A DNA stretch of 64,000 nt from Candidatus Latescibacterota bacterium (GTDB taxonomy: Bacteria; JAAXHH01): the NCBI GenBank assembly GCA_022822725.1, contig JAJEAN010000001.1, positions 310,001 through 374,000 of the forward strand, in the 5' to 3' direction. Positions 47,231 to 62,714 of this stretch are shown here, piece after piece. A model generated the notes under the pieces. It was not told where the DNA came from, did no database searches, and saw only the letters and a program-made list of their open reading frames with translations. The stretch's first letter is position 1, and every line of letters starts with the position of its first letter. The position numbers and the translations under genes are program-made.

Positions 47231-47267
47231 ACCCCTCCCGCGGCGAGCAATAGCACAGAAGTACCAC

Positions 47268-47903
47268 ATGGCCAACGATCATCGGCACGATCAAGACCGT
47301 ACGGACCCGCCCCCGGATATCGAATTGCGCGTGAAAGCGCTCGAATCGCTGCTCGTGGAGAAAGGCCTCGTTGATCCGGAAGCACTGGAAACACTCATCG
47401 ACCTGTACCGGGACAAAATCGGTCCGGCGAACGGGAAGCGCGTCGTGGCGCACGCATGGGCGGATGAAGCGTTCAGGCGCTGGTTGCTCGAAGATCCCAA
47501 TGCCGCAATCGCGTCGATGGGCCACACGGGGGCGCAGGGCGAGCAGATGCGTGTCGTGGAGAACACGGACGACGTGCACAACCTCGTAGTCTGCACCCTC
47601 TGCTCCTGCTACCCGTGGCCGCTCCTCGGCCTGCCGCCCGTCTGGTACAAGTCCGCGCCGTACAGAGCGCAGGCCGTCGTAGATCCGCGCGGCGTTATGA
47701 GACAGTTCGGCACGGAAGTTGCCGAACGGAAAGAGGTGCGCGTGTGGGATTCCACGTCCGAGATGCGCTACCTTGTGTTGCCGCAGCGTCCCGATGGCAC
47801 GGAGGGATGGAGCGAGGAGGAGCTCATGGAACTCGTGACGCGCAACGCCATGATCGGGGTCGAGGAGGCGCGGCATCCGGCGGCGGAGGACCGCGGAGCA
47901 TGA
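47268..47903 (+). CDS. nthA: Nitrile hydratase alpha subunit, cobalt type
   Basis: 211 residues. The metal motif is [10 protein letters not shown] with C109, C112 and C114; Thr after the first Cys marks the cobalt type. The rest is typical: [75 protein letters not shown]. The heterodimer with the beta subunit hydrates nitriles to amides; two of the cysteines are oxidised after metal insertion. The last 17 codons are repeated as a 50-base tandem copy directly after the gene. Beta and accessory genes follow. Confidence 0.97.
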
Positions 47904-47949
47904 TCGGAGTCGAGGAGGCGAGGCATCCGGCAGTGGAGGGTCGTAAAAC
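47850..47949 (+). repeat. 50-bp tandem duplication of the nthA gene end
   Basis: The block beginning atgatcggggtcgaggagg at 47850 is repeated at 47900 with a few changes. ATGA stands at 47850, 47900 and 47950, exactly 50 bases apart. Since 50 is not a multiple of three, the second copy is read in a new frame. Confidence 0.9.
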
Positions 47950-47953
47950 ATGA
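47900..47953 (+). CDS. 17-codon mini-ORF bridging nthA and nthB
   Basis: It encodes [17 protein letters not shown], a copy of the nthA C terminus. It starts on the nthA stop (ATGA) and ends on the nthB start (ATGA), so it keeps the two subunit genes coupled although the duplication would otherwise have separated them by 46 bases. The peptide itself probably has no role. Confidence 0.35.
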
Positions 47954-48621
47954 GCGGTGTACACGATCTGGGCGGGATGCGGGGGTTCGGGCCGGTACGG
48001 CATGAGCCGGAGACCGAGGAACCGGTCTTCCACGAAAAATGGGAGGGCCGGGTGTTCGGAATCGTCGAGCTCATCGGGCTTCTGGGACAGTGGTCCATCG
48101 ACAAGTCGCGCTACAGCAGAGAACAGTTACCTCCCGCCGACTACCTCGCCAACTCCTACTATGAGAAGTGGTATGCGGGGATACGTAATCTACTGGTCGA
48201 GTCCGGCCTCGTTACGGCAGAGGAACTGCAGACGGGCAGGACGTCGACCCTCGTACCGGAACAAATCTTGGAAAAGGTTGCGCATGTCGAACAGGTGCGT
48301 GCGGCACCTTTCAAACCGTCGAACTACGTCCGGCCCGCATCCTCAACGCCCCGGTTCTCGCCGGGCGACCGCGTGCGCGCAATCAACCGCTATCCGGACG
48401 GGCACACCCGGGTCCCGGCCTACGTCCGAGGCCACACGGGGACCGTGCGCGAGCACTACGGATCGCAGGTGTACCCGGACCTGAGCGCCCAAGGCGTGGA
48501 CGAGGGAAGGCACCTCTACAACGTACGCTTCGAGGGGCGTGACCTGTGGGGGAAATCAGCCAACGTGAACAGCGCCGTACACGTCGACCTCTGGGAAACC
48601 TACCTGGAGCCCGCACCGTGA
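47950..48621 (+). CDS. nthB: Nitrile hydratase beta subunit
   Basis: 223 residues. [20 protein letters not shown] is the universal beta start (HDxGGMxGFGxV). FHEKWEGRVFGIVELIGLLG, NSYYEKWYAGIRNLLVESGL, FSPGDRVRAINRYPDGHTRV and PAYVRGHTGTVREHYGSQVY, LYNVRFEGRDLWG complete the family pattern. It packs on the alpha subunit to form the substrate channel. Its last bases and stop are duplicated (23-bp unit), creating an eight-codon bridge to the accessory gene. Confidence 0.97.
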   Translation: MSGVHDLGGMRGFGPVRHEPETEEPVFHEKWEGRVFGIVELIGLLGQWSIDKSRYSREQLPPADYLANSYYEKWYAGIRNLLVESGLVTAEELQTGRTSTLVPEQILEKVAHVEQVRAAPFKPSNYVRPASSTPRFSPGDRVRAINRYPDGHTRVPAYVRGHTGTVREHYGSQVYPDLSAQGVDEGRHLYNVRFEGRDLWGKSANVNSAVHVDLWETYLEPAP

Positions 48622-48647
48622 CTGACCTGGAACCCGCACCGTGACTG
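48602..48647 (+). repeat. 23-bp tandem duplication of the nthB gene end
   Basis: The unit acctggagcccgcaccgtga occurs at 48602 and again, with one change, at 48625. Each copy ends in GTGA, so a mini-ORF of eight codons (48618-48644, MTDLEPAP) links the nthB stop to the GTG start of the accessory gene. Confidence 0.85.
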
Positions 48648-49153
48648 ACCCGCGACAGCACAGTGGAACGAAGGCAGACCCTCAGTTGCCTGTAAGAGCG
48701 AAGGCAGACCTGCAACTGTCCGGCGGAGCGAATGGGCCGGGTGATGTCCCGCCGGGCGACATCCCGCCGGGGGACGATGGCGCGCTGGGGGACACCTCCC
48801 TGGGCGACATCCCGCTGGGGGACGACGGAGCGCCGGTGTTTGCCGCGCCATGGGAGGCGTCGGCGTTCGCGCTCGCGGTGCGTCTATCCGGCGAAGGTCA
48901 CTTCACGTGGAGCGAGTGGGCCGCCACGCTGAGCGAGGAGATACGCGCGGCGCAGCGGGAGGGCGACCCGGACCGTGGCGATACGTATTACCGGCACTGG
49001 CTCCGGGCCCTGGAGCGCCTCTGCAGACAGCGCGGGCTCGTGTCGCGGGAGGAGGCGACCGGCCGCAAGGATGCGTGGCGAAGGGCGTATCTCGACACGC
49101 CGCACGGTAAGCCGGTCGAGTTAGTGCCACATCACAATCATAATACCCCGTAA
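48641..49153 (+). CDS. Nitrile hydratase accessory (activator) protein
   Basis: 170 residues from GTG at 48641, overlapping the bridge ORF stop. Residues 66-165 match nitrile hydratase activators: PVFAAPWEASAFALAVRLSG, FTWSEWAATLSEEIRAAQ, YYRHWLRALERLCRQRGL and REEATGRKDAWRRAYLDTPH. These proteins help load cobalt into the alpha subunit. The N-terminal 65 residues are an unusual extension with Lys/Ala/Asp repeats and PPGD/PLGDD units (VPPGDIPPGDDGALGD), apparently from local duplication. If the extension is not translated, an internal start would be needed, but none with a good site is seen. Confidence 0.88.
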   Translation: MTDPRQHSGTKADPQLPVRAKADLQLSGGANGPGDVPPGDIPPGDDGALGDTSLGDIPLGDDGAPVFAAPWEASAFALAVRLSGEGHFTWSEWAATLSEEIRAAQREGDPDRGDTYYRHWLRALERLCRQRGLVSREEATGRKDAWRRAYLDTPHGKPVELVPHHNHNTP

Positions 49154-49391
49154 GAGCCATTCATGCGCCGCTGAACGCGGATTCTGCCAGAACCAGTGAT
49201 CCATCGCGATCCGGCGACCCCTTACAGGTCCGGTGACCCTTCCCGATCTGACGACTCTCCAGGTCAGGCAATCCATCCGGCGCAGGCAGATCTTCCATGG
49301 CAGGCGAAGTTCAGTTACGAGGTTTGGTGAGACGACGCACACTAATCCATTAAGTGGAATGCTCATTCAACCTCAATGAAAGGACCTGACC

Positions 49392-49649
49392 ATGGAAACC
49401 ATCGGCATTTTCATACAGGGAACCACGGCCGTAGGCGTACTCGTCCTGGCTATCCTGACATTCATGGGTCGTTCGACGAATGTGCTGCGGGAGGACATTG
49501 CCTCCTTGCGAGGCGATGTTAAGGAATTGCGAACTGAGATGAACGTAAAGTTCTCGGAAGTTTGGACCGAGATACACAATATGAATACCCGCCTGGGTCG
49601 GGTCGAAGGACATCTTCGAATTTCCGACGACCATCAGGTCGACCGCTGA
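49392..49649 (+). CDS. Small membrane-anchored coiled-coil protein
   Basis: 85 residues; AAAGGA lies seven bases before the ATG. Residues 5-25 (GIFIQGTTAVGVLVLAILTF) form one TM helix; 30-75 are a coiled coil (LREDIASLRGDVKELRTEMN, VWTEIHNMNTRLGRVEGHL). Small proteins of this build are common near transporters and toxin genes, but no role can be assigned. It is followed by a Gfo oxidoreductase 21 bases on. Confidence 0.6.
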   Translation: METIGIFIQGTTAVGVLVLAILTFMGRSTNVLREDIASLRGDVKELRTEMNVKFSEVWTEIHNMNTRLGRVEGHLRISDDHQVDR

Positions 49650-49670
49650 TCTCGTAATTGGAGAACCCCG

Positions 49671-50753
49671 TTGCCGGATTCCGGAGGCGAAGCCTTTCTA
49701 ACCGTGCGAGACACCGCACCGGAGCAAACCTATCGCGGTGCTGTGGTCGGCTGCGGAAGGATGGGCAGCACCATCGACGACGAGCACGTCGGTCAGCCCC
49801 ATTATCCCTGGCCGTGGGCGCACGCGCCCGCCATGATCGAAGCCCGGGGGATCGATCTCGTCGCCGCCGCGGACGAAGACCCGGCCAAACTGGAGGATTT
49901 CAAGCGACGCTGGGGCGTTTCAGCCCTGTACACCGACTACCGGGAGATGGTTGAAAAGGAAGAGATCGACGTGGTCTGCCTGACCACCCGGCCCGAACCG
50001 CGCGCGGAAATCACGGCGGGATTGGCCGAACTGGGCGTAAAGGCCATTTTCGCCACCAAGCCGATGTGCCGCACGCTGGCCGAAGCAGACGCCATGATCG
50101 ATGCCTGCGCCCGGCACGGCGTCATCCTCGCCATGGCCTGCCATCTCAACTGGTACGGCTATTATACAACAGCGCGCCGACTCATAGCTGAAGGAGCCAT
50201 CGGTCCCCTGAAGACCATGGTCTGTCACAGCCCGTCGACGCTGTCCAACATCCAGAGCCACACCCTGTCCTTATTGCGGCTCTTTGCCGGAGCGCCGGCA
50301 CGGTGGGTAGTCGGTCTGATCGACACGGACGAACAGGCCGCTTCCGATGCCGATATTCCCGGAACCGGGATCGTCGTATACGAAAACGGGATCCGGACCA
50401 TACTCAACTCCCGATCCGAGTCGCATATCTACTCCTGGTCCCTCGAGTTCATCGGCGAAACCGGCCGTATCGTCTCCCGGCATTCCCATGCACAGTTCGA
50501 ACTCTGGACCCCGAATCCCGTAACCGGCGCACCCACCCAGACACACCTGCCCGGGCCGTGGCATCCCCGAAGCTCCATGGTCGATGCGATTGAAGGCGTA
50601 TGCCGTTCTATAGAACTGGGAAGGGAAGAAACCTGCCCGGGCGAGTTCGGCCGCGAAACCCTTGAGATCGCCATCGCCATCCGGGAATCCCACCGCCGGG
50701 GAAACGTGCGGGTCGACCTGCCGCTTGAGGATCGTGGTTTGAGGATGGGGTAG
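49671..50753 (+). CDS. Gfo/Idh/MocA family oxidoreductase (second copy)
   Basis: 360 residues from a TTG with GGAG seven bases upstream. The Rossmann loop is GAVVGCGRMGSTIDDEH, the acidic residue lies in AAADEDPAKLEDF, and the EKP-type motif reads IFATKPMCRTLAEADAM, so the Glu is Thr here while the Lys is kept. CHLNWYGYYTTARRLI covers the active-site region. Function: NAD(P)-dependent sugar or polyol redox enzyme, substrate unknown. It is the last high-GC gene before the defence-type island. Confidence 0.88.
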   Translation: MPDSGGEAFLTVRDTAPEQTYRGAVVGCGRMGSTIDDEHVGQPHYPWPWAHAPAMIEARGIDLVAAADEDPAKLEDFKRRWGVSALYTDYREMVEKEEIDVVCLTTRPEPRAEITAGLAELGVKAIFATKPMCRTLAEADAMIDACARHGVILAMACHLNWYGYYTTARRLIAEGAIGPLKTMVCHSPSTLSNIQSHTLSLLRLFAGAPARWVVGLIDTDEQAASDADIPGTGIVVYENGIRTILNSRSESHIYSWSLEFIGETGRIVSRHSHAQFELWTPNPVTGAPTQTHLPGPWHPRSSMVDAIEGVCRSIELGREETCPGEFGRETLEIAIAIRESHRRGNVRVDLPLEDRGLRMG

Positions 50754-50894
50754 CTGTCTAAGCTTATCATCCTTTGTCGTACCGCTTTTAAACCCTGACG
50801 AAACCGAGTAACAAAAGGTCGCGGCTTCTGTGAACAAGGCAACGCAACTCTTTGGATTAACCCGCGAGGAGATAACGATCAAAGAAGAGTAGAT
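50754..50894. other. Left boundary of the lower-GC island; 20-codon ORF inside
   Basis: Base composition falls here. A frame 50830-50892 (GTG start, MNKATQLFGLTREEITIKEE) ends two bases before the next ATG. It has no clear ribosome-binding site and may be the tail of a lost gene. Confidence 0.3.
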
Positions 50895-52253
50895 ATGTTT
50901 AACGAACCGAAAGAGAAAAAACTGAGAGTTCTGCTTGATTCGGACTCACTCAAATCAGATTGTGCACAAAGGTTATTGCAGTACAGCGATAACGATCTGT
51001 TTGAGTTTGTGTCACTTGGCAACTCTACAAAACATACGGTAGCAGAACTCAACTTCGAGGGCGAAAGTAGCACAACCGGTATTGTTATTGATAAGTCCGA
51101 TAAACATTTTTGTGGGTCCGAATATAGAGTTTGGTTTGGCTACGACATTTCAAACATTAAGGCGGTTGCAAAAAAACTAGACTTTAAGTATAGCGATTTG
51201 GTTTTGGTATATATTTTGAAAGCTCTCATAGGACCCGAAACGGGCCAAAAGACGATCTTGATTACGGAACGAGAGAAGTTGCTCAATCGACTGAATTGGA
51301 GCAAGGCGAGTTTTCCGAGCATTCCGACAAACAGCATATTTAGTCCCGACGAAGCGCTGATTTATATAGACCTTCATTGCAAGCAATGGAAAGAGTATCT
51401 CATCGCGCCTAACTATTACGTTAACAGGGGACTTTGGTATCTCTATTCGTTCAAGACGAAACTAACCGAATATCAGCACGCGTGGTCCGCGGTTGTTTTC
51501 GGTGGCGCGTCTATACCGGATGGAGAAAAACTTACGGACAGCACCGAATCGCTTGCGGACAGATTTACGGATATGCTGATTGCGATAGACGAGATTGGAA
51601 TAAACTACTATACCGGTGTAAATAACGACACCCAAGACGCTATCATTTACCATTTCAACTACTGGATAACGCTTTTCACTGGAGTTTTTGACGCACTCGC
51701 GTGGATTTCAAAGTACCGCTATCAGATTGAGTTTGACCATGTGGGGCGGATTGGACTACGTACAAGCAGTCATAAGAAATTTACACGATTGTTGTTTGAG
51801 AAAGATGCCAAACTCAGGGGTTACTTGAGCAAAAATTCGTCAGTTATCGAATTGATGTATGAACCTAGGAATTTGGTGATTCACAGGGAGCAATTGAAAG
51901 GACTGCGGTTTAACAACAGAAGCGAGAACTTTGACTTCAATATGGTGCGAATACCAGAGAAGTTTTTCGACCAGATAGTGGAGTTATCAAAAGAGAAAGG
52001 TGATACACTAAGAGAATGGGGGCATTATCAATCGCACGGCGAGTTTTTTCTTGAGCCGTATCGATTTGTCCGGAAAGCAACTCCCGCCCTGATCGAGTTT
52101 GCCAACGGGTTTTTGAAACTGCTGGACTTCGGCGAATACGCGAATAGCGACGCGAAACTCGAGAAAGAGATTGAGGGTAGCCACGACTCCAGAAAGCGTG
52201 ATGATTTCGCGGAAAACGCGGAGAGGTTTGCCAAACACCGATTAGGGTACTAA
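50895..52253 (+). CDS. Putative two-domain RNase-like protein (PIN-like N terminus, HEPN-like C terminus)
   Basis: 452 residues, markedly AT-rich against its neighbours, so probably acquired. Residues 8-165 show a PIN-like pattern: RVLLDSDSLKSDC with acidic residues after strand 1, a central helix pair (YSDLVLVYILKALIG), and KTILITEREKLLNRL plus FSPDEALIYIDL, like the 'lvTnD..ll' and 'sPeell' parts of PIN domains. About 215-460 is helical and contains EPRNLVIHREQ, an R-N-x3-H motif (R325, H330) of the HEPN RNase type. I do not recognise the family as such. GAAGAG lies upstream of the ATG. Neighbouring defence genes support a role in abortive infection, but this is inference. Confidence 0.6.
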   Translation: MFNEPKEKKLRVLLDSDSLKSDCAQRLLQYSDNDLFEFVSLGNSTKHTVAELNFEGESSTTGIVIDKSDKHFCGSEYRVWFGYDISNIKAVAKKLDFKYSDLVLVYILKALIGPETGQKTILITEREKLLNRLNWSKASFPSIPTNSIFSPDEALIYIDLHCKQWKEYLIAPNYYVNRGLWYLYSFKTKLTEYQHAWSAVVFGGASIPDGEKLTDSTESLADRFTDMLIAIDEIGINYYTGVNNDTQDAIIYHFNYWITLFTGVFDALAWISKYRYQIEFDHVGRIGLRTSSHKKFTRLLFEKDAKLRGYLSKNSSVIELMYEPRNLVIHREQLKGLRFNNRSENFDFNMVRIPEKFFDQIVELSKEKGDTLREWGHYQSHGEFFLEPYRFVRKATPALIEFANGFLKLLDFGEYANSDAKLEKEIEGSHDSRKRDDFAENAERFAKHRLGY

Positions 52254-52301
52254 TTGGACACCCTCATAACGGGCAGGTTGGGGCAAGCACTCGCAGAGCC
52301 T

Positions 52302-52430
52302 TCATAACGAGCTTCTGAACGAACTCATATATAACTCCTCAACCTCATCAGGCTCCAGCATTCCTTCGTACAAGATCCTGTTACATCCTTCCCTCCTCCA
52401 CGAGGACTCGCAATACTCAGCCCATCCCAT
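52302..52430 (-). CDS. Small ORF of 42 residues
   Basis: The peptide MGWAEYCESSWRREGCNRIL, then LEPDEVEELYMSSFRSSL looks protein-like (amphipathic, charged, with two Cys), and it lies 21 bases downstream of another small gene on the same strand. A GGTGGA stretch is about 12-15 bases upstream. It is not recognised, and could be chance. Confidence 0.3.
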   Translation of the reverse strand: MGWAEYCESSWRREGCNRILYEGMLEPDEVEELYMSSFRSSL

Positions 52431-52451
52431 TCGCCAATTGGATCCACCCAA

Positions 52452-52706
52452 TCAACTTCCACCGAAGAAGATAGATTTTATTGCAATGCTGATCACCGCG
52501 ACAGCGACAGGGTATGCTATCCCGATAAGAAGATAAACATCCGCTTTAGTGACCAGGCGCGCTGTATTTGCCTTTACTGCGGTCATTTCCCTCTCAAGGG
52601 ACCTCATGTCATCCTCGGTGGTTAGATGTCTAAGCTGAGCATAATGTGTTGTGTCACCAATCTGCATATCGGGATACCTTGACAAGTATGTACCAGACTG
52701 GTTCAT
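52452..52706 (-). CDS. Small tail-anchored membrane protein
   Basis: 84 residues from MNQSGTYLSRYPDMQIGD; an ATG or alternative start ten codons upstream is possible. The middle part (EDDMRSLEREMTAVKANTAR) is a short coiled coil. The C-terminal VYLLIGIAYPVAVAVISIAI is a TM helix followed by KSIFFGGS. It is divergent from the restriction-modification gene, with starts about 70 bases apart, so both may share regulatory DNA. Function unknown. Confidence 0.5.
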   Translation of the reverse strand: MNQSGTYLSRYPDMQIGDTTHYAQLRHLTTEDDMRSLEREMTAVKANTARLVTKADVYLLIGIAYPVAVAVISIAIKSIFFGGS

Positions 52707-52777
52707 TTTCTCGAATGTGCGTGGAGCAGCACCCACAGTAGTAAAACCCCATCTACTTCACAAGACAGGGTATCCTG

Positions 52778-55567
52778 ATGCGTCTTTCTTGGAACGAGGT
52801 CCGCACACGTGCCGCCGTTTTCGCAGACAAATGGCACGCTGCGTCCTATGAGAAGGGCGAGACACAGACCTTCTATAACGATTTCTTCCACGTTTTTGGA
52901 GTTCAACGTAGAAGTGTAGCTAGATACGAAGAGCGTGTGAAGAAATTAAACGATAGTCAGGGCTTCATCGACCTATTCTGGCCGGGCGTGTTGATCGTCG
53001 AACAGAAGAGCGCCGGACGCGACCTCGAAAGTGCCTACGAGCAGGCTGGCGACTATTTCGACGCCCTCCCTGAGCATGAAAAACCCCGATACATCCTGGT
53101 TAGCGACTTTCAAAATTTCGAGTTACGCGATCTGGACGAGTCCCAAACCGATTCTTTCGAACTCAAGGACCTACCTGCCCATGTGGAGTCTTTCGGCTTC
53201 ATCATGGGCGTCCAGCGTAAGACCTTCCGGGACCAGGATCCGGTCAACATCGCGGCGGCCGAACTGATTGGAAAGCTGCACGATGCTCTTAATACAGCCG
53301 GTTACAGGGGGCAGAATCTCGAACGATTTCTTGTGAGAACCGTATTTTGTCTCTTCGCCGACGACACCGGCATCTTCGAGACGCGGGATGTATTCAGCGA
53401 CTACGTAGAGACGCGCACGAGCGAGGACGGCTCCAACCTGGGCGCGTTGCTGACCGAACTGTACCAGGTGCTGGATACACCGGAAAGCGAGCGTATTTCC
53501 ACGCGTGACGAAGATCTCAAACGGTTCCCCTACATAAACGGCAGGCTGTTCGAAGGATCGTTGCGCATACCTGCCTTCGACGCGTCCATGCGACGCCTGT
53601 TGCTGGAGGCCTGCAACTTCGACTGGTCGGACATATCTCCGGCGATCTTTGGTGCCTTGTTTCAATCGGTCATGGATCCTATTGAACGCAGAGCCGCTGG
53701 GGCGCACTACACTACCGAGCAGAACATCCGCAAGGTAATCGAACCGCTGTTCATGGACGACTTACGTACAGAATTCGAAAGACTCCGGTCTCGTAAGGAC
53801 AGCAGGCGCGTCGGTGAACTTCGACGGTTTCAGAGAAAGCTGGGGGAACTGCAGTTTCTCGACCCGGCCTGCGGTTGCGGCAACTTTCTCATCATAGCCT
53901 ACCGAGAAATGCGCCTGCTGGAGATAGAAGTGATCCGAGAAATCCGTTCAGCGACCGGTGTCAGCGAACAGACAATGCTGGACGTGGAGTTGATTTCACA
54001 CGTCAACGTTGATCAGTTCTACGGCATCGAGTTGGGTGAGTTCTCTGTACGCATTGCCGAGACGGCATTATGGATGATGGATCACATCATGAACAATCGG
54101 CTGAGCCTTGAGTTCGGCCAGACCTACACCCGCATCCCGCTGAGCACTTCTCCCCGCATTGTTCAGGGTGATGCGCTGGAGACGGACTGGGCGGCATTGT
54201 TACCGCCGGAAGCATGTTCTTATGTGTTAGGCAATCCTCCATTCGTCGGGGCAAAACTCCAGAAACCGGAGCAGCGCGAACAGGTGAGGAGGATTGCTTC
54301 CCTCGGTAAGTCCGGCGGCACACTCGACTATGTGACTGCCTGGTTCATCAAAGCGGGCGAATACGTGCAGGCAAGCAAGGCCCGTATCGGTTTCGTATCG
54401 ACCAACTCGATCACGCAGGGCGAACAGGTGGCGCAGCTCTGGCCAATCCTATATGAACGCTGCAATCTGGAAATCGTATTCGTACACCGCACCTTCGCCT
54501 GGGGATCCGATGTCCGCGGTAAGGCCCAAGTACACGTCGTGGTCATCGGCCTCGATAGGCGAGAATCTGTCCGAGCCGAAAAGAGGCTGTTCAGCTACCC
54601 GGATATCAACGGCGATCCCGTAGAAACCCGGCACACGGTGCTCTCGCCCTACCTTTTCGACGCGGGCGGAATGTCGAACCCTCATCTGACAGTACGGGAG
54701 GAGAACCGGCCGATCAACGGGATACGGCAACTGATCATCGGGTCAAAGCCTAAAGACGGCGGCCACTATATCTTCAACGCGGCGGAGCGCGAAGAGTTCA
54801 TGGTCGCCGAACCAGAATCTCCACCCTTTCTGCGTCCTTATGTCGGTGCGAGAGAGTACTTACAAGGCGGTGACCGGTGGATTCTGGCGCTGCACGACGC
54901 CTCGCCGCAGACGATCGCGAAAATGCCACGTGTTCGGGAGCGGATTGCCGCCGTACGAGCGTATCGAGAGGCCAGCAGGAGCAAACCGACACAACAACTT
55001 GCAATGACGCCAACGCTTTATCACATAAACGTCGTACCTACCGCACCGTTTCTGCTGATTCCAAGGGTAAGTTCGGAACGACGGGAGTATACGCCTATCG
55101 GCTGGCTGACTCCGCCGGTCATCCCTAGTGATGCTGCACTAGTACTTCTTACCGCCACCCTGACAGACTTCGCGATCCTCACGTCGGCCATGCATATGGC
55201 CTGGCTTCGTCATGTAGGTGGTCGGTTGGAAAGTCGTTATCGGTATTCCATCGGACTCGTATACAACACCTTCCCTATGCCCGATGAAGGAACAGACTTA
55301 CAAAATCTGAACCCACTGGCGCAAGCCGTGCTTGACATCCGCGCTGCCCATCCGAAAGCAACCCTTTCAGATCTGTATGATCCAGACCTGATGCCTCCTG
55401 ACCTTCGCAAGGCACACCAGGCTCTCGACCGCGCCGTGGACCGCCTCTATCGACCTAGGAGATTTGCCTCGGAACGAGAACGAGTGGAACATCTTTTTGT
55501 GCTTTACGAGAGGATGCGGATGCTGCTGGAAGTCACCCCAAAACGCAACTCAACACGCCGAAGATAA
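52778..55567 (+). CDS. MmeI-like type IIL restriction-modification enzyme
   Basis: 929 residues. The N-terminal nuclease domain has the PD-(D/E)XK core in GFIDLFWPGVLIVEQKSAGR: D65, E75 and K77. A helical linker follows (NLERFLVRTVFCLFADDTGI), then a gamma-class N6-adenine methyltransferase with motif I LQFLDPACGCGNFLIIAYRE near residue 360 and motif IV VLGNPPFVGAKLQ near 484. The C-terminal 300 residues would be the target-recognition domain. Such single-chain enzymes cut and methylate asymmetric sites, modifying one strand. No separate specificity or nuclease gene is present, in agreement. It is the main classical defence gene of the island. Confidence 0.88.
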   Translation: MRLSWNEVRTRAAVFADKWHAASYEKGETQTFYNDFFHVFGVQRRSVARYEERVKKLNDSQGFIDLFWPGVLIVEQKSAGRDLESAYEQAGDYFDALPEHEKPRYILVSDFQNFELRDLDESQTDSFELKDLPAHVESFGFIMGVQRKTFRDQDPVNIAAAELIGKLHDALNTAGYRGQNLERFLVRTVFCLFADDTGIFETRDVFSDYVETRTSEDGSNLGALLTELYQVLDTPESERISTRDEDLKRFPYINGRLFEGSLRIPAFDASMRRLLLEACNFDWSDISPAIFGALFQSVMDPIERRAAGAHYTTEQNIRKVIEPLFMDDLRTEFERLRSRKDSRRVGELRRFQRKLGELQFLDPACGCGNFLIIAYREMRLLEIEVIREIRSATGVSEQTMLDVELISHVNVDQFYGIELGEFSVRIAETALWMMDHIMNNRLSLEFGQTYTRIPLSTSPRIVQGDALETDWAALLPPEACSYVLGNPPFVGAKLQKPEQREQVRRIASLGKSGGTLDYVTAWFIKAGEYVQASKARIGFVSTNSITQGEQVAQLWPILYERCNLEIVFVHRTFAWGSDVRGKAQVHVVVIGLDRRESVRAEKRLFSYPDINGDPVETRHTVLSPYLFDAGGMSNPHLTVREENRPINGIRQLIIGSKPKDGGHYIFNAAEREEFMVAEPESPPFLRPYVGAREYLQGGDRWILALHDASPQTIAKMPRVRERIAAVRAYREASRSKPTQQLAMTPTLYHINVVPTAPFLLIPRVSSERREYTPIGWLTPPVIPSDAALVLLTATLTDFAILTSAMHMAWLRHVGGRLESRYRYSIGLVYNTFPMPDEGTDLQNLNPLAQAVLDIRAAHPKATLSDLYDPDLMPPDLRKAHQALDRAVDRLYRPRRFASERERVEHLFVLYERMRMLLEVTPKRNSTRRR

Positions 55568-55660
55568 GGCCAATAGGGTTTTCCAGATCTTGGCGGTTGA
55601 TGGGAACCACCTGATATGGTGAAACGGTATAACGGTCCACGGAAACGGGGTAACATCACT

Positions 55661-56170
55661 TCAGATTGGTTGGATAAGTTGCAGATTTACAAGACGGTAG
55701 GTCATCGCCTGAGTACTGACATTAAACGTCTTCGCTAGCTTCTCTAGACTGTCGTCGCCGGTCAACTCAAAGGGTTGCTGTTTAAAAGCATCGCTGACTC
55801 GCTTAGCAGGCATGAGGAGCGCTGCAGCGAAAGCATTGGCCTCCATTTCCTCGGACTTGGTCCCGGAGCCAGACTCTAGGTCCCGAAAGTGAACGCGATA
55901 CCCTTTGTCAATATACGTATCCCCGTCATGTAGAACGAAGTGGCCGATTTCGTGTGCAATGCTAAATCGCTTCCTGTTGGGGTGGTGTTCCTCATTGACC
56001 CCTATGACAGCACGGTCTCCATTGCGGACAAGCACTGCTGAACAATCTTCACCAAGGTCTGCAAATTCGACCTTTATGCCCAGATAGGCAGTAACTTGCC
56101 CTAAGGGCACAGGGATCGTATCCACCCCAGCCCCTACGAGTAACTGCTCAGCTCGCCTCTCCATCGACAT
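55661..56170 (-). CDS. ImmA/IrrE-family metallopeptidase
   Basis: 169 residues. Zinc motif FSIAHEIGHFVLH with the HEXXH core, and downstream MEANAFAAALLMPAKRV with the third ligand Glu. The last third is helical with SLEKLAKTFNVSTQAMTYRL, a helix-turn-helix-like segment. ImmA proteins cleave XRE repressors of mobile elements to release their targets. GGAGG lies nine bases upstream of the ATG. The start overlaps the XRE gene's 3' end by 23 bases. Confidence 0.93.
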   Translation of the reverse strand: MSMERRAEQLLVGAGVDTIPVPLGQVTAYLGIKVEFADLGEDCSAVLVRNGDRAVIGVNEEHHPNRKRFSIAHEIGHFVLHDGDTYIDKGYRVHFRDLESGSGTKSEEMEANAFAAALLMPAKRVSDAFKQQPFELTGDDSLEKLAKTFNVSTQAMTYRLVNLQLIQPI

Positions 56171-56528
56171 TGGAACTGACCTCCTCCCGGCTGATGGAGA
56201 TAAAGGCAGCTACTTGATCTTGGCTCTCTCCTGCCGCCTTCTTCAGCCTGCCTTTGATTTGGAGATTTAATTTTGCTGCCTCGCTCAGTGGGAGTTCTTC
56301 GGGCGAAGGTAAAAGCGAGCGCATGTCCACACTGAGTGCATCGGCGATAGACCAAAGCGTGTGGAGCGTTGGTCGTTGTCTTCCACTCTCAATATTGGCT
56401 ATCGTACCCCGGGCGAAGCCACAACGATGCGCGAGTTGGGTTTGCGAAAGATCCGCCTCATGCCGTTGCTTTGCCACCTTACGCCCGACGAGTTTGTAGA
56501 GCCTCTCTGAGTTGGGTATCCGTCGCAT
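56148..56528 (-). CDS. XRE-family transcriptional repressor
   Basis: 126 residues from MRRIPNSERLYKLVGRKVAK; the frame is open 18 codons upstream but that part is hydrophobic and AT-rich. Helix-turn-helix: LSQTQLAHRCGFARGTIANI then ESGRQRPTLHTLWSIADALS. The C-terminal part (ESQDQVAAFISISREEVSSN) would be the cleavable regulatory tail. It is divergently oriented to the ubiquitin-like operon, 200 bases away. A TGTTCC-N10-GGAACA dyad overlaps the operon's promoter, which makes it the likely target. Confidence 0.9.
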   Translation of the reverse strand: MRRIPNSERLYKLVGRKVAKQRHEADLSQTQLAHRCGFARGTIANIESGRQRPTLHTLWSIADALSVDMRSLLPSPEELPLSEAAKLNLQIKGRLKKAAGESQDQVAAFISISREEVSSNVDGEAS

Positions 56529-56652
56529 ATGCTGTAAGAAATATCGCGATACGAGCACGAAAAGACAAGTAATAAAAAGCAAATGGGGTGGTATTCATGC
56601 ACAAGTGTCTTGTAATTTTTAATACAAAGCATTAATAAATTGATTTTATTAG

Positions 56653-56681
56653 TTGACATATGGCATCTGTATCCATATCTT
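56653..56681 (+). promoter_or_regulatory. Promoter of the ubiquitin-like operon
   Basis: TTGACA (56653-56658, perfect) and TATCTT (56676-56681) are exactly 17 bases apart. The start is near 56688, 40 bases before the first gene, which has AGGAGG five bases before its ATG. Confidence 0.7.
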
Positions 56682-56686
56682 GACGG

Positions 56687-56708
56687 TGTTCCTCAATTCG
56701 GGGGAACA
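56687..56708. promoter_or_regulatory. Operator-like dyad over the transcription start
   Basis: TGTTCC (56687-56692) and GGAACA (56703-56708) are perfect inverted arms separated by ten bases. The site covers the predicted transcription start, so a bound repressor would block initiation. The adjacent XRE protein is the obvious candidate. Confidence 0.5.
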
Positions 56709-56727
56709 TCATCCATAGGAGGAGCAG

Positions 56728-57198
56728 ATGGACAGCGGAACTGACAAACGCGACTGCGTAGACGAGATCGTGAATATCGAGAAATACGCGGCCGAGGACA
56801 GAAAAGTGCCTGATCACTGTAAGGGCTATCTGATCAGTGTGAATGGTCAGGAGATTCTCGTAGAGAATTCCATAGTGACCCACAAGGAGTTGTTACAGTT
56901 CGCTAAGGTTGATCCGACTGTGGAAGTCTGTGTCCGCGTTTACATTCGTGGATCGAAACCCAGAGTACTCCAGCCGGGTGAAGAGGTTAAATTGACCTTG
57001 CCGGGCGTTGAGCGTTTCCGGGTGGACGAGAAGTGCACTGTCGGGGTGAAGGTTAACAACACGTTCTTTCAACTTACTGTTCCTACAACCGGTGAGGGAG
57101 TGAAACGGGCTGCCATTGAGACCGGTGTTAATATCGAGTTGGATTTTGTCCTCTTCTTGGAACTGGACGACGGACCGGCGGAGCAGATTGATAGATAA
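56728..57198 (+). CDS. Double ubiquitin-fold (multiubiquitin-type) protein
   Basis: 156 residues. After an acidic N-terminal segment of 30 residues come two beta-grasp repeats. The first is at 32-98, with KGYLISVNGQEILVENSIVT, HKELLQFAKVDPTVEVCVRV and KPRVLQPGEEVKLTLPGVER; the second, shorter one at 103-148 is CTVGVKVNNTFFQLTVPTTG, IELDFVLFLELDDG. The 'VNG..i.v....it..ellqla' and 'l.pGe.V.L..gve.F' patterns are those of bacterial multi-ubiquitin domain proteins. There is no C-terminal Gly-Gly; it ends DDGPAEQIDR. It is the first gene of the operon with an E2-like protein and a JAB-E1 fusion. Confidence 0.8.
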   Translation: MDSGTDKRDCVDEIVNIEKYAAEDRKVPDHCKGYLISVNGQEILVENSIVTHKELLQFAKVDPTVEVCVRVYIRGSKPRVLQPGEEVKLTLPGVERFRVDEKCTVGVKVNNTFFQLTVPTTGEGVKRAAIETGVNIELDFVLFLELDDGPAEQIDR

Positions 57199-57268
57199 TA
57201 CCGAGGTAGTATTCGTAGACGAAGGTGCCTGCTTCACAGCCGTAGATGGAGACGATAACGCTTAGACG

Positions 57269-57670
57269 ATGGCATTCAAACCCGCAGTAGAAGAAGCAAT
57301 CAAAGACCTACGGAAAGCCTTCCCAAAGGCTACTGTTAGTCCCTCTGAAGATGGTCAGGGCGGAGCCCACATCTTGATCGAACCGGTCTCGCTTGATCCA
57401 CAAGTCTTCGACCAGAACGAGACTTGGGTCGGATTCGACTTGAGCTTCCAACTCCCCTATGCCGATGTTTATCCGATTCACGTTCGGCCTGATTTAGTAC
57501 GGCGAGACGGGCGGGAACTCAGTGATCCAGCCTTACACCACGGTCAAAACTATCAAGGGCGGCCCTCTTTGATGCTTTCTCGTATCTCTAACAACCGTGA
57601 CCCTGAGCTGGATAAGCCTCACCTGAAAATACGCAGGGTGCTCGAATGGCTAAGGAGATGGCCAGAGTGA
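57269..57670 (+). CDS. E2 (UBC-fold)-like protein with Ser in place of the catalytic Cys
   Basis: 133 residues with no cysteine at all. After a first helix (VEEAIKDLRKAFPKAT) come three strands: GAHILIEPVSL, ETWVGFDLSFQLPYADVYPI and HVRPDLVRRDGRE. PYADVYPIHVRP matches the E2 'YPf.PP.v.f' turn. The active-site stretch is LHHGQNYQGRPSLMLSRISN: H91 and N94 correspond to the HPN motif, and S100 takes the place of the Cys in the usual G-x-I-C-L. The end LKIRRVLEWLRRWPE is the last helix. It either uses an oxyester or has become a non-catalytic adaptor. It overlaps the next gene as GTGA. Confidence 0.7.
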   Translation: MAFKPAVEEAIKDLRKAFPKATVSPSEDGQGGAHILIEPVSLDPQVFDQNETWVGFDLSFQLPYADVYPIHVRPDLVRRDGRELSDPALHHGQNYQGRPSLMLSRISNNRDPELDKPHLKIRRVLEWLRRWPE

Positions 57671-59094
57671 CCGATTTCGACCTGATTCTGCCAGAGAAAC
57701 TAAAAAGTAACCTCTTCGCGCATCTTTTCCCAGGAGATGGAGACGAGCACGGAGCGGTCATCTCTGCCGGTGTCGTACATACTGACCGAGGGCTCAGGCT
57801 TCTGGCGAGAAATCTATTTTTAGCCGAAGACGGTACTGATTATGTCCCCGGAAAGCGTGGGTATCGAATGCTCACGCCACGATTTGTGATGGAGAGATCC
57901 CGCTACTGTCGGGACCAGGATCTAGCCTACTTGGCGGTACATAATCATGGCGAAGGGGAGTCAGTAGGTTTTAGCGGAGTGGACCTTGCTTCTCACGAAC
58001 GCGGGTATCCCGCTCTGATAGATATCTTGCAGGGGCAACCGGTCGGTGGCATTGTCTTCGCGAAACATGCGGTTGCCGGCGATCTCTGGCTTCCAAGCGG
58101 TGGACGTGCTGTGCTTCGAGAAGGAAGGGTGATAGGAGGCTCCATTGAGCGTTTATACCCAAAACCTCCGTCGGTTCCTTTGGGCGTGGATTCGACCTAC
58201 GATCGGCAGGCGCGGCTCTTAGGCGACCGAGGCCAATCGCTTCTCAATGGCGCAAAGGTAGGAATCATCGGTGCGGGAGGGGTGGGGGCCCTCCTGGGAT
58301 TATATATGGCCCGTCTCGGCGTAGGACACATCGTCGCCGTGGATCCCGACCGTATTGACATCACCAATCTACCCAGAGTTCCCGGTGCCACTCGTTTCGA
58401 TGCCAGGATTTGGTTCACCGCGGACGGACGTCCCAAATGGCTTCAGAAATTTGGGCGTAGAATTTCTTCCCGAAAGGTGGACATTATGCGGCGGGTTGCT
58501 CGCCGAGCCAAGCGGGATATACGATTTGACGGTATCTTCGGAGATGTCGTTGATGACACCATAGCGATGCAATTTCGGGACTGTGATTTCCTATTTCTGG
58601 CTGCGGATACCCATCAAGCAAGGCTGGTCTTTAATGCACTTGTCCATCAATACCTCATACCGGGTGTTCAGGTGGGTTCCAAAGTCTCTGTCGATAAGGT
58701 CACAGGCAAAATAAACGATGTGTTCTCGGTCGTGCGTCCAGTCCTCCCGGATTCTGGATGCCTTTGGTGCGCGAAACTCGTAGATCAGGCCCGTTTGGCA
58801 GAGGAGTCGTTGCCAAAAGAGAAACGCGAACATCAAAGGTACATTGAGGAGGTTCCAGCACCAAGTGTAGTGACACTAAACGGTGTCGGCGCGAGCCACG
58901 CTGCGAATGAATTCCTTTTCTCGTGGACGGGACTTCGGAGGCCGACCTGTGAGGAGCAGTACCTGCTTTACAAGCCGCGAGAGCGAAAGACTAAAATGAT
59001 AATACCCTTACGTAAAGAGGAATGCATTGAGTGTGGGGGCGGAACAGAAAGTCGACGGGCACGGGGCGACAGCATGAAGCTCCCAACACGATAA
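57667..59094 (+). CDS. JAB/JAMM deubiquitinase-like domain fused to an E1 (ThiF) adenylating domain
   Basis: 475 residues from the GTG at 57667, which overlaps the E2-like stop and has AAGGAG nine bases upstream; ATGs at 57646 or 57658 are alternatives. The JAB part has GDEHGAVISAG (Glu) and VHNHGEGESVGFSGVD, a full HxH-x8-S-x2-D zinc site. The E1 part starts with GAKVGIIGAGGVGALLGLYM, then VDPDRIDITNLPRVPGATR (ATP-binding Asp, Asn, Arg). Zinc cysteines lie in SGCLWCAK and ECIECGG. Between them, where the crossover loop should be, there is no Cys, so the protein may only adenylate. It would activate and possibly trim the ubiquitin-like protein. Confidence 0.88.
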   Translation: MTDFDLILPEKLKSNLFAHLFPGDGDEHGAVISAGVVHTDRGLRLLARNLFLAEDGTDYVPGKRGYRMLTPRFVMERSRYCRDQDLAYLAVHNHGEGESVGFSGVDLASHERGYPALIDILQGQPVGGIVFAKHAVAGDLWLPSGGRAVLREGRVIGGSIERLYPKPPSVPLGVDSTYDRQARLLGDRGQSLLNGAKVGIIGAGGVGALLGLYMARLGVGHIVAVDPDRIDITNLPRVPGATRFDARIWFTADGRPKWLQKFGRRISSRKVDIMRRVARRAKRDIRFDGIFGDVVDDTIAMQFRDCDFLFLAADTHQARLVFNALVHQYLIPGVQVGSKVSVDKVTGKINDVFSVVRPVLPDSGCLWCAKLVDQARLAEESLPKEKREHQRYIEEVPAPSVVTLNGVGASHAANEFLFSWTGLRRPTCEEQYLLYKPRERKTKMIIPLRKEECIECGGGTESRRARGDSMKLPTR

Positions 59095-59442
59095 GCAATG
59101 GAGATTCGAGCCAGTATTTACGGAGGCGGTTATTGTCATCCAGAATCGACTGTCAAAGTCGAGTAGCTTTCCCATTCTGCTCACCCTCACAGACCCGAAT
59201 GTTGTACGATTTCGTCCGCAGGTCGCTTCCGTGCCAGTAGTTTACTAGTACGACTATGCCGCTCGCGGTAAATAGAAAATTCGCTCCCGGTCTCTAATGA
59301 TCGGGGTGACTAATACCACATATTCGGGTATTCACTTGTGTTTCTCTCTCGGACAGTCCGCTCTTTTGAGGTTGTTTTAGGAAGTACGCGTTCTCCTGAA
59401 AGACTTGCCCATCTGTAGTACTACTCCTCAGACGCTTAACAG
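59095..59442. other. Gap between the ubiquitin-like operon and the Fic gene
   Basis: 348 bases. Directly after the JAB-E1 stop an ATG at 59098 opens 22 codons (MEIRASIYGGGYCHPESTVK and two more) ending at 59166; it has no clear ribosome-binding site and may be chance. The rest is AT-rich with no gene and no clear terminator. Confidence 0.35.
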
Positions 59443-59538
59443 CACAACACAATTCACTCGTAATTCCACAACATCATTGACTTGTGATTCCACAACATTA
59501 TATACTTGTACATTCACAACCGATCAAACTTGTAAGCG
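59443..59538 (+). repeat. Four 24-bp tandem repeats, each a CACAA-N10-TTGT dyad
   Basis: Units start at 59443, 59467, 59491 and 59515. Each begins CACAA; in units 2-4 TTGTG or TTGTA follows ten bases later (CTCGTA in unit 1), so each is an inverted repeat. Perfect arms occur in unit 2 (CACAA/TTGTG). The array ends 15 bases before the Fic start codon. Confidence 0.85.
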
Positions 59539-59553
59539 CCCGAGAAGTCCAGC

Positions 59554-61092
59554 ATGGCTAAACCCAACGAAAAACTAGCCGCGGCGCTGGAGCAACTAAA
59601 AAACCTCCAGAAGGGAGGAAGGCGGGTATTTCGATCCAACGAACTTACGCGCATCCACCGCGAACGTCTGCTTAAAAACGGCTTCATTCAGGAGGTCATG
59701 AAGGACTGGCTGATCTCGTCCAGCCCCGATGCTAATCCGGGTGACACGACTTCGTGGTTCGCCTCGCTCTGGGAATTCTGCGTTTCCTATTGCACGGCAC
59801 GGTTCGGTAAAGCGTGGCATCTTTCCCCCGAGCAGTCCTTGTTGCTTCATGCTGAATGCACCGTCATCCCTCGGCAGATCATCATCTATACGCCTAAAGG
59901 CACCAACAACACAGTCGAGTTGCTATTCGGAACGTCGCTATACGATCTCAAACAAAAAGACATCCCGGCCGACGAGGACGTAACCACTCGAGACGGGCTC
60001 AAGCTCTTTGTACCCGAAGCCGCACTTGTCAAGGTCCCAGAAGCGTTCTTTGTCCGTAACCCGGTTGATGCTCAAATCGTACTTTCCGGTGTCAGAGATG
60101 CGGGCGATGTGCTAGGCCGGCTTCTCGACGGCGGCCATTCAGCCATTGCTGGTAGGCTTGCCGGAGCTTTCCGCCGGATCGGCCGGGCAGACATGGCTGA
60201 CGAAATGCTCAAAGTCATGAAAAGCGCCGACTACGATGTGCGCGAGTCTGACCCGTTTGAGCCAGCGCAGGTATTCGGTGCGTTGAAAGGGACCCAAGCG
60301 CCAATTGCCAGGCGGCTGCAATCCCTGTGGGAGACTTTTCGGGAGCCGGTGATTGCAGCGTTCCCGAAGTCTCCGGAACTACCGCAGGACCCGAAAGCTT
60401 ATCTGTCTTTTGTCGACGGCATCTACCTCAACGACGCTTACCACTCGTTGTCGATTGAAGGCTACCGCGTGACGCCGGAACTGATTGAACGGGTGCGCTC
60501 CGGTAACTGGAATCCGGACGGTAATGAAGCCGACCGGCAAAGCCGCGATGCGCTTGCGGCGCGCGGTTACTGGCAGGCTTTTCAGCTGGTCCGTGAAACG
60601 GTTGGCGAAGTGATGGACGACGCCAATCCAGGCGGCCTGGTCCGCAATGCCCACCGGGACTGGTATCGCGAGTTGTTCCAGCCTTGTGTCGCCGCTGGAC
60701 TGTTCTCAGCTTCGGTTCTTGCTGGCTATCGCAATGAACCCGTGTTTATACGTGGATCCCGCCATGTGCCGCCACGCAGTGAGGGGGTCCGCGACGCCAT
60801 GCCAACCTTGTTTGACTTGCTCGAAAAAGAAACTGTGCCTTCAGTGCGCGCCGTGCTTGGACATTGGCTCTTCGGTTACGTCCATCCCTATCCTGACGGT
60901 AACGGGCGTATGGCGCGTTTTTTCATGAACGTCATGTTGGCCTCGGGCGGTTATCCGTGGACAGTCATTCGTGTCCAGGACCGCAACGCCTACCTTGCCG
61001 CGCTCGAAAGCGCCAGTATTGATCAGGACATAGAGCCATTTGCGGGATTTGTAGCAGAGCAGGTTGCGCGTTCACAGGAGCAGATGGGGTAA
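59554..61092 (+). CDS. Fic-domain protein (AMPylator-type) with N-terminal winged-helix-like region
   Basis: 512 residues. The Fic motif HPYPDGNGRMARFFMN is near residue 443, with the catalytic His and the phosphate-binding GNGR. The inhibitory motif is HSLSIEGYRVT near residue 298, a (S/T)xxxE(G/N) glutamate that would block ATP until released, on the N-terminal side as in class II Fic proteins. Residues 1-180 are unlike Fic and resemble AbiEi-type winged-helix antitoxin domains (RVFRSNELTRIHRERLLKNG and EVMKDWLISSSPD). It may transfer AMP to a target and bind its own promoter repeats. GAGAAG lies six bases before the ATG. Confidence 0.9.
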   Translation: MAKPNEKLAAALEQLKNLQKGGRRVFRSNELTRIHRERLLKNGFIQEVMKDWLISSSPDANPGDTTSWFASLWEFCVSYCTARFGKAWHLSPEQSLLLHAECTVIPRQIIIYTPKGTNNTVELLFGTSLYDLKQKDIPADEDVTTRDGLKLFVPEAALVKVPEAFFVRNPVDAQIVLSGVRDAGDVLGRLLDGGHSAIAGRLAGAFRRIGRADMADEMLKVMKSADYDVRESDPFEPAQVFGALKGTQAPIARRLQSLWETFREPVIAAFPKSPELPQDPKAYLSFVDGIYLNDAYHSLSIEGYRVTPELIERVRSGNWNPDGNEADRQSRDALAARGYWQAFQLVRETVGEVMDDANPGGLVRNAHRDWYRELFQPCVAAGLFSASVLAGYRNEPVFIRGSRHVPPRSEGVRDAMPTLFDLLEKETVPSVRAVLGHWLFGYVHPYPDGNGRMARFFMNVMLASGGYPWTVIRVQDRNAYLAALESASIDQDIEPFAGFVAEQVARSQEQMG

Positions 61093-61243
61093 TTGGCAAC
61101 GGTCGGGCGCGAAATCAGCAGCGGCCAAGCGCGAAATACTAATAGGCCGACAATTAGTAACTAACTCTGCGTGGCGTCCAAAAGGCTGGTCTGTCACATA
61201 TTTTCCATTCTTCCCTAGGCGTGTTTTATCTTGCCAGCCAGTT

Positions 61244-62287
61244 CTACGCTCTGAGATTAACAGTGTAGCATTCGTCTCTCCACCGTTCGATTTGATCTGC
61301 TAGTTCATTAATATCCATCCCGATATATCCTAAACAACTGACGCTCTCGAACAGCAGGAAATTCAAGAAGCTATTTACCATTGCAAGGTTTTTCTGCAAT
61401 ACAACTCTACCATGCGTGGGTATAAACTTCAAAAATCCTGATTCACTATCACGAAGGTGCCGTATAGAGTCCTCGGAGAAACTAAGGTGGGAAGCATTCT
61501 TGTTTAGGTGGTTTCTCAAACCCTGAAACTCACTATCAATTTTCTTGCCGATCTCGCCAGCACTAGGTTTCTTGTCGTTTCTTATATCAGCTGCGCGTTC
61601 GGGCTTAACTCGAACGTACTCCAACAAATCACAGGTTTCGATTAATGGGCGTAACAGTGCACCCGATTCTTGTGCAATCCCGTCGATTATTAAATTATAG
61701 ATTCCAAAAATAAGATGATGAGCTTTAACTGTTGTTAACGCGCAAACCTCAATGTATGGATCACTCAAGTTCTTGGGGTCGCTTAATATACGATTATATA
61801 AACTGATACATTGATAAAGAAGATAGAAACCATGGTGGAGAAGATCAGATTCACACTTTAACTCATTTCCAAACCAAGAATGAGATCTCCAACGAGCGCT
61901 CCATAGACCCAGATTGCTATCTACCTGTATTTCTTCGACCTCATCCGGCTGCGGCATCTCTTCAAACCGCACCGCCTTGACCGTCTTCCTTCCCTCGAGC
62001 AGCGCCCGCGCCAGGCGGTGACCGCCGTCCATCAGCCGTCCGTTGTCGTTTATGATCACCGGTTTGCTGAAATCGGCCTCATTGATGCGCTGGCAATGTC
62101 CGGCCACCTCCCTTATCGTTGGTGGCTTACGCTCGCTGAACCAGCAGTCCCGGTCCAATTCCTCGAACTGCTCGACTTCCGCCTCATATTCCGGCAAGCC
62201 TTTCGCCAGTTCCCACAGCCGCTCGGTGTACCAGATGTACCGCTTGCCATCGCGTTCCGTCGAATGTCTCTGCCTGGGTCTCTTCAA
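61244..62287 (-). CDS. Chimeric protein: ParB-like N terminus, helical HEPN/DUF-like C terminus
   Basis: 347 residues from a TTG with GAGGAG about ten bases upstream. Residues 1-120 read RYIWYTERLWELAKGLPEYE, PPTIREVAGHCQRINEADFS and GRLMDGGHRLARALLEGRKT, a ParB/sulfiredoxin-like module that I know as a free-standing protein of about 125 residues. After VEEIQVDSN the composition turns AT-rich and the rest is helical: HHLIFGIYNLIIDGIAQESG, ALLRPLIETCDLLEYVRVKP and KIDSEFQGLRNHLNKNASHL, a pattern resembling DUF5677/Abi-type domains. The join lies near DNA position 61925. It is the right end of the island. Confidence 0.65.
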   Translation of the reverse strand: MKRPRQRHSTERDGKRYIWYTERLWELAKGLPEYEAEVEQFEELDRDCWFSERKPPTIREVAGHCQRINEADFSKPVIINDNGRLMDGGHRLARALLEGRKTVKAVRFEEMPQPDEVEEIQVDSNLGLWSARWRSHSWFGNELKCESDLLHHGFYLLYQCISLYNRILSDPKNLSDPYIEVCALTTVKAHHLIFGIYNLIIDGIAQESGALLRPLIETCDLLEYVRVKPERAADIRNDKKPSAGEIGKKIDSEFQGLRNHLNKNASHLSFSEDSIRHLRDSESGFLKFIPTHGRVVLQKNLAMVNSFLNFLLFESVSCLGYIGMDINELADQIERWRDECYTVNLRA

Positions 62288-62309
62288 TTCGTTTTTACTC
62301 CTCTGGCTC

Positions 62310-62714
62310 CTATTTCTTATTCAGGGATCGCAGCAGCTTCACGACCTCGGAGGCTTCCTTGCCTCCCTTTCTAGCATGGGCCATGAGCGAGATTCCATGT
62401 GGTCCCGGCTTGTCTTTTTCAGCTGGATTATCGTCGAGAATGGCCTGCACTACGCTCAGTTTTCCCAGCATTGCTGCGGCATACAGATCGATGCGCGCCC
62501 CATGTTGCAAAAGGTATTCCGCTATGTCCTTGCGCCCCATATGCGCGGCGGCCCCCAGCCCGGTTTCCCAGTCACCGCCACCCCAGTCCCAGCAGGCGTT
62601 GACCAGTTTGGGCTCCTGGTCCAGCAATGCCTTGACGCTATCGAAATCGCTATGGGCGTCGTATACGAATCGATGTACTATTTCCGGATCCAATGCTGCC
62701 TTCTTGGGAGACAT
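62310..62714 (-). CDS. Ankyrin-repeat protein
   Basis: 134 residues. Two to three ankyrin repeats: FDSVKALLDQEPKLVNACWD, GLGAAAHMGRKDIAEYLLQH with GARIDLYAAAMLGKLSVVQA, and a C-terminal GPHGISLMAHARKGGKEASE. A protein-binding scaffold; partner unknown. No signal peptide. It ends 22 bases before the ParB-like chimera and is probably co-transcribed with it. Confidence 0.85.
   Translation of the reverse strand: MSPKKAALDPEIVHRFVYDAHSDFDSVKALLDQEPKLVNACWDWGGGDWETGLGAAAHMGRKDIAEYLLQHGARIDLYAAAMLGKLSVVQAILDDNPAEKDKPGPHGISLMAHARKGGKEASEVVKLLRSLNKK

Follow-up and report, generated by a model that had tools for sequence, protein, structure and literature searches.

Bub pathways (Gong 2025 and Ye 2026, as cited in PMC13373217) are the closest described relatives of the operon reported here, and the Citrobacter proteins BubA, BubB, and BubCD (PDB: 9d59, 9ea4, 9ea8, and 9eav) served as the known reference. 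The corresponding "type 6e" operons of Iyer, Burroughs and Aravind (2006; PMC1779556) encode one to three tandem ubiquitin-like (Ubl) domains, a Cys-less E2/RWD-like protein, a JAB-E1 protein, and a metal-binding protein with a C-x3-C...H-x2-C motif; two or three genes besides E1 were listed, so that the metal-binding gene is a common but not a constant member. CapW or CapH+CapP is present in 219 of 544 Bub operons, and CapP is activated by ssDNA and then cleaves CapH; phage protection by Bub operons has not been demonstrated (PMC13373217).

The operon described here lies in the window, the whole 64,000-nucleotide stretch of DNA that was analyzed, and is a Bub operon ("type 6e") of a variant clade that lacks DUF6527. 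The account that we favor, and hold to be probable, is that a three-gene operon of this clade, under CapH/CapP control, reached a defence slot by horizontal transfer and that a frameshift has inactivated its modifier gene. With Citrobacter Bub it shares the multi-ubiquitin modifier, the Cys-less E2, the JAB-E1 fusion, the gene order, and CapH/CapP-type regulation; with type 6e it shares tandem Ubls, a Cys-less E2/RWD-like protein, a JAB domain N-terminal to E1, and a sporadic spread that includes cyanobacteria and actinobacteria. Unlike Citrobacter Bub, the compact clade has no DUF6527 gene, its E2 is missed by PF14462, and its E1 keeps two CxxC pairs. The compact modifier is separate from the E2 and ends in -DDNS in intact relatives, whereas that of Citrobacter is fused and ends in -NG, and the modifier in the window is in addition frameshifted.

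Two other systems share parts of this layout. In Bil (bacterial ISG15-like) systems, a single operon likewise supplies a Ubl, an E2, an E1, and a JAB deconjugase, and the E2 has a catalytic cysteine; the E2-like protein of the window has none, its E1 is fused to JAB, and every protein is closer to Bub. Type II CBASS (Cap2/Cap3) shares E1, E2, and JAB chemistry and CapH/CapP regulators, but the window operon has a dedicated Ubl and no E1-E2 fusion, and no CD-NTase was found among the neighboring genes scanned with Pfam, PADLOC, and NCBIfam; it is not a type II CBASS.

Operon layout and genomic slot

Three co-directional ORFs (56728-57198, 57269-57670, and ~57667-59094, plus strand) form the operon. 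The features of the locus, in window coordinates, are:

52778-55567 (+), left neighbor, outside the operon: MmeI-type IIG restriction-modification protein (PF20473, E = 1.5e-82; PADLOC IIG, 1155 bits)
55517-59445 (unstranded), exchangeable cassette of 3.9 kb, CapP/CapH plus the compact Bub operon (collinearity with genome G002 on either side)
55661-56170 (-), CapP-like metallopeptidase, IrrE/M78 with HEIGH motif (PF06114, E = 6.7e-24; PADLOC capP, E = 9.9e-37)
56148-56582 (-), CapH-like HTH repressor, likely start ATG near 56528 (HTH_3, E = 3.2e-15; PADLOC capH, E = 3.3e-9)
56651-56681 (+), candidate operon promoter, TTGACA-17-TATCTT (consensus scan and inverted repeat; weak)
56728-57198 (+), modifier ORF, BubA-like Ubl, 156 aa, C-terminally truncated (Pfam Multi_ubiq, PF14452, E = 8.6e-11; model; profile)
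57191-57265 (+), out-of-frame (+1) end of the modifier, IDNTEVVFVDEGACFTAVDGDDNA and a stop at 57263-57265 (profile; relatives end in -DDNS and a stop in frame)
57269-57670 (+), Cys-less E2-like protein, BubB-like (profile, PDB sequence, and fold matches)
57667-59094 (+), JAB-E1 fusion, BubCD-like (BubCD 9ea4, E = 8.7e-20; invariant residues)
58198-59022 (+), ThiF/E1 adenylation domain, residues 185-459 (Pfam ThiF, E = 3.3e-25)
59554-61092 (+), right neighbor, outside the operon: Fic-domain protein (PF02661, E = 1.7e-11)

The sequence-only reading of this DNA had described three co-directional genes, the last two overlapping by four bases, and a minimal ubiquitination-like operon in a defence island. 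Both points held: the overlap (GTGA) follows from a GTG start at 57667, ahead of which lies AAGGAG (57651-57656; the earliest ATG in this frame is at 57646), and the operon class can now be sharpened to the compact clade of Bub.

A second genome of the same genus, G002, is collinear with the window over 47219-55516 and 59446-62669 at 78-84% identity, and between these flanks it carries 7.67 kb of unrelated cassette. The Fic gene, beyond the swapped cassette, is 82% identical. Judged from this collinearity, the site between the MmeI-type restriction gene and the Fic gene is a swappable defence slot. The G002 cassette (G002:C2, L048 8579-15706) is itself a candidate defence system. Its genes all lie on the minus strand, and their products are a TIR-domain protein, a 636-aa protein without a Pfam match, an ATPase containing a pair of GHKL (HATPase) domains, and a DNA methylase. 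In the G002-conserved stretch beyond the cassette, the window also encodes a 347-aa protein (61244-62287, minus strand) for which Pfam gave only DUF5677, at a non-significant E = 0.06.

Upstream of the operon, an HTH repressor gene and an IrrE-type peptidase gene lie divergently, the arrangement of CapH+CapP, and the pair is predicted from sequence to act as a DNA-damage-responsive protease and repressor; the CapP-like gene also gave a weak match to the CapP structure (PDB: 7t5t). HTH/IrrE genes, separate or fused, precede the operon in most compact relatives. The consensus scan found one promoter where 0.6 were expected, and an imperfect palindrome at 56651-56668 covers its -35 box and is a possible CapH operator.

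The best solved relative of the JAB-E1 protein is Citrobacter BubCD, matched over residues 13-425. The JAMM motif and the E1 GAGGVG loop, both noticed earlier from the sequence, are present; the motif reads H99-N-H101-x8-S110-x2-D113 (coded at 57940-57984), and its four named histidine, serine, and aspartate residues, together with E34 and the glycines of the adenylation loop, are invariant in 11 aligned sequences. The E1 domain has two C-x-x-C pairs (C372/C375 and C460/C463) that probably form a zinc site, and in the same 11 sequences no other cysteine of JAB-E1 is conserved across the clade.

The compact clade and its relatives

The sequence-only reading had staked its case on the three genes co-occurring elsewhere and on beta-grasp, UBC, and ThiF/JAB folds; the predicted folds agree, and the same genes recur in the same order in 11 other loci. 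Nine are plasmid loci from other phyla, found by tblastn in Nostoc (2), Mesorhizobium (2), Rhizobium, Mycolicibacterium (2), Rhodococcus, and Deinococcus, and two are genome loci, G010 (same genus, 46% identity) and G213. The same search found a further plasmid remnant in Nostoc. The clade is rare, at 2 of 16 genomes in the phylum of the window and 1 of 195 in that of G213; searches of phage genomes and viral contigs and of two very small phyla added nothing, and genome contigs returned ThiF-loop matches only. An identity of only 46% between the two same-genus copies would fit horizontal acquisition. Across phyla, the three operon genes are all that the compact loci have in common, with no shared flanking effector.

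In the E1 tree, the 12 compact sequences stand together on one side of a 100/100 branch. The DUF6527 profile found its target in 10 of 10 other Bub loci but in none of the 12 compact loci, nor in the window or its whole genome, and for this reason we file the operon as a variant clade. The metal-binding C-x3-C...H-x2-C protein of type 6e, which we take to be DUF6527, is absent from the window operon. The small gene set, described earlier as an "unusually small version", is a trait of the whole clade and not peculiar to this locus. The system class itself is already known as Bub; what may be new is limited to the compact DUF6527-free clade with its serine-ended modifier, as delimited by the loci examined here.

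That the modifier is encoded unfused and mature can explain the missing DUF6527 only partly: in Rhizobium phaseoli (L031) and Neotabrizicola (L037), DUF6527 is retained alongside an unfused modifier with a -TEG end. The DUF6527 proteins have a nearly invariant PS[VI] and an H-F/Y pair, which would fit the family of Ser-His proteases that Ye et al. (2026) reportedly found in Bub operons.

Several of the related loci have features of their own. On the plasmid of Nostoc cf. commune SO-36 (L028 3913-4972), a deletion removes the E2 and JAB and joins modifier residue ~31 to E1 residue ~164; IrrE/HTH genes adjoin it. On that of Deinococcus sp. D7000 (L026 5023-6315), whose E1 is the closest relative of the window's (61% identity), an insertion of ~1.3 kb, with annotated transposase genes, interrupts JAB-E1. 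The Mesorhizobium huakuii plasmid operon (L025 2881-9204) is flanked by a helicase gene and exonuclease/AAA-ATPase genes, with no annotated CapH/CapP, and has the most deviant modifier end of the compact members (HHEDS). The G010 operon (L050 7105-8857) adjoins a C5 cytosine methylase and a Vsr-type endonuclease, at a site that differs from the window's. Nearest to the compact clade in the E1 tree is a further Bub subtype from Bradyrhizobium (L034 3185-7280) and Deinococcus sp. AB2017081 (L030 3247-7141), with modifiers ending in -ATFGHGTY or -ATFGGGV and an extra gene ahead of DUF6527, annotated as a phosphotransferase in L030.

The modifier gene and its frame break

The first beta-grasp domain of the modifier (residues 34-97) is complete and the second is only begun. 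The two-repeat beta-grasp protein of the earlier reading therefore stands for its first repeat, and its second is cut by the frame break, as the profile of 11 relatives reveals. The nine best PDB matches of the truncated model were bacterial multi-ubiquitin proteins and BubA, and the Bil modifier structure (PDB: 8u38) was also among the fold matches; matches to EF-P fell far below the cut-off and were disregarded.

The annotated ORF ends at 57198, after "GPAEQIDR", and its own stop leaves 70 bases to the E2 start. The final ~24 residues (...FTAVDGDDNA) fall in the +1 frame past 57190, which from 57191 reads IDNTEVVFVDEGACFTAVDGDDNA up to a displaced stop 3 bases ahead of the E2 start (-4 to 13 in the relatives). 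A profile of the last 72 residues of the 11 relatives matched the annotated frame over positions 1-49 (E = 2e-12) and the +1 frame over positions 45-71 (E = 9e-6), placing the switch at ~57190. Ten of the 11 relatives, the same-genus G010 included, end in -DDNS, the exception being M. huakuii, and a break at this junction occurs in none of them. A programmed frameshift was considered and set aside, as it is common to no relative. A tandem direct repeat of GATAGATA lies at the junction (57190-57197), consistent with slippage. The displaced tail is undecayed and the key residues of E2 and E1 are kept, so the frameshift is apparently recent. As translated, the truncated modifier has neither the end of its second domain nor the conjugation tail that would be activated. 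With the modifier end lost to the frameshift, the window copy probably cannot attach a tag, and the operon as sequenced is probably non-functional.

The break could instead be an assembly or sequencing error, in which case the organism would have an undamaged modifier gene and a functioning compact Bub operon; we estimate this to be unlikely. The draft genome comprises 9 contigs, and the conserved residues kept in E2, E1, and the displaced tail would suit such an error; however, the junction is a 4-base tandem repeat rather than a homopolymer, and the flanking restriction and Fic genes, ~4.3 kb of coding sequence, show no net frame disruption against G002. These intact frames argue against a noisy assembly, while leaving room for a single error in the modifier gene.

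The E2-like protein and the proposed pathway

The E2-like protein contains no cysteine in its whole sequence and had no match in Pfam (PF14462 included), NCBIfam, or PADLOC. Its profile aligned with the classical Bub E2s (PF14462 members) at an hhalign probability of 97.7 (E = 2e-12); the best PDB sequences for the profile were Citrobacter BubB chains (E = 0.035), and the best PDB matches of an AlphaFold2 model of moderate quality (pLDDT 67, pTM 0.64, from three sequences) were E2 enzymes throughout (best E = 0.095). Each line is modest individually, but taken together they make a UBC fold and kinship to BubB very likely. In our alignment of the window protein with ten relatives, F18, G31, W53, P63, D66, Y68, P69, R78, D80, S104, R105, N108, K120, and V124 are invariant, among others, and the "YPI.VRP" turn picked out in the sequence-only reading aligns with the invariant D-x-Y-P.

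The complete lack of cysteine, and the reading of type 6e E2-like proteins as inactive when they were first described (Iyer 2006; PMC1779556), would both suit a structural, catalytically inactive RWD-like partner, with E1 handing the modifier straight to targets. We consider this improbable: Ser104-Arg105, Asn108, Asp66, and Tyr68-Pro69 are invariant in the 11 aligned sequences, and hhalign places Ser104-Arg105 (Ser104 codon, 57578-57580) on the S-R of the W-S-R-H motif of classical Bub E2s. Conservation of Ser104 is nevertheless a sign of importance and not proof of catalysis.

In intact relatives of the CapH/CapP-controlled operon, phage or other DNA damage would, by analogy, yield ssDNA, CapP would cleave CapH, and the operon would be transcribed (PMC13373217). 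The E1 half would then adenylate the C-terminus of the modifier, whose sequence is encoded already ending in -DDNS. In the absence of a conserved catalytic cysteine from both E1 and E2, the modifier would be carried in oxyester linkage, with Ser104 of E2 as the likeliest site, before its transfer to a target; this step is suggested by the absent Cys, the conserved Ser, and the oxyester intermediates that Ye et al. (2026) are said to have described. The JAB half, with its intact JAMM motif, would remove the modifier. In the window genome, the product would be a truncated protein without the C-terminus that is to be activated. A functional break, with the modifier turned on and off by recoding or by slippage that reverses at the GATAGATA repeat, is very improbable. 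The tandem repeat lies exactly at the junction and the +1-frame tail is undecayed, but the 11 relatives show here neither a break nor a frame that depends on the repeat, a tract of only two units is too short for efficient phase variation, and a known slippery motif is absent.

We put forward only tentatively, and rate as less probable than its opposite, the idea that the compact operons represent a separate branch of Bub. In this view, DUF6527 is dispensable because the modifier is synthesized with its -Asp-Asp-Asn-Ser end already in place, and the three genes would make up a complete, cysteine-free pathway joining a serine rather than a glycine carboxylate.

Judged from its context, a defence slot with a restriction gene as neighbor, the Bub operon may have a role in antiphage defence, and the cassette swap and the CapH/CapP switch are added positional evidence for such a role. 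The frameshift in the window, the transposase-split E1 of Deinococcus, and the Nostoc deletion suggest frequent loss of compact operons, as might be expected of a costly system. Within ubiquitin chemistry, Bub pathways form a mechanistically odd branch that was recognized only recently, and this well-supported clade, with the smallest gene set and an unusual serine-ended modifier, would offer a clean system for defining the essential parts, the role of DUF6527 elsewhere, and how an E2 works without cysteine.
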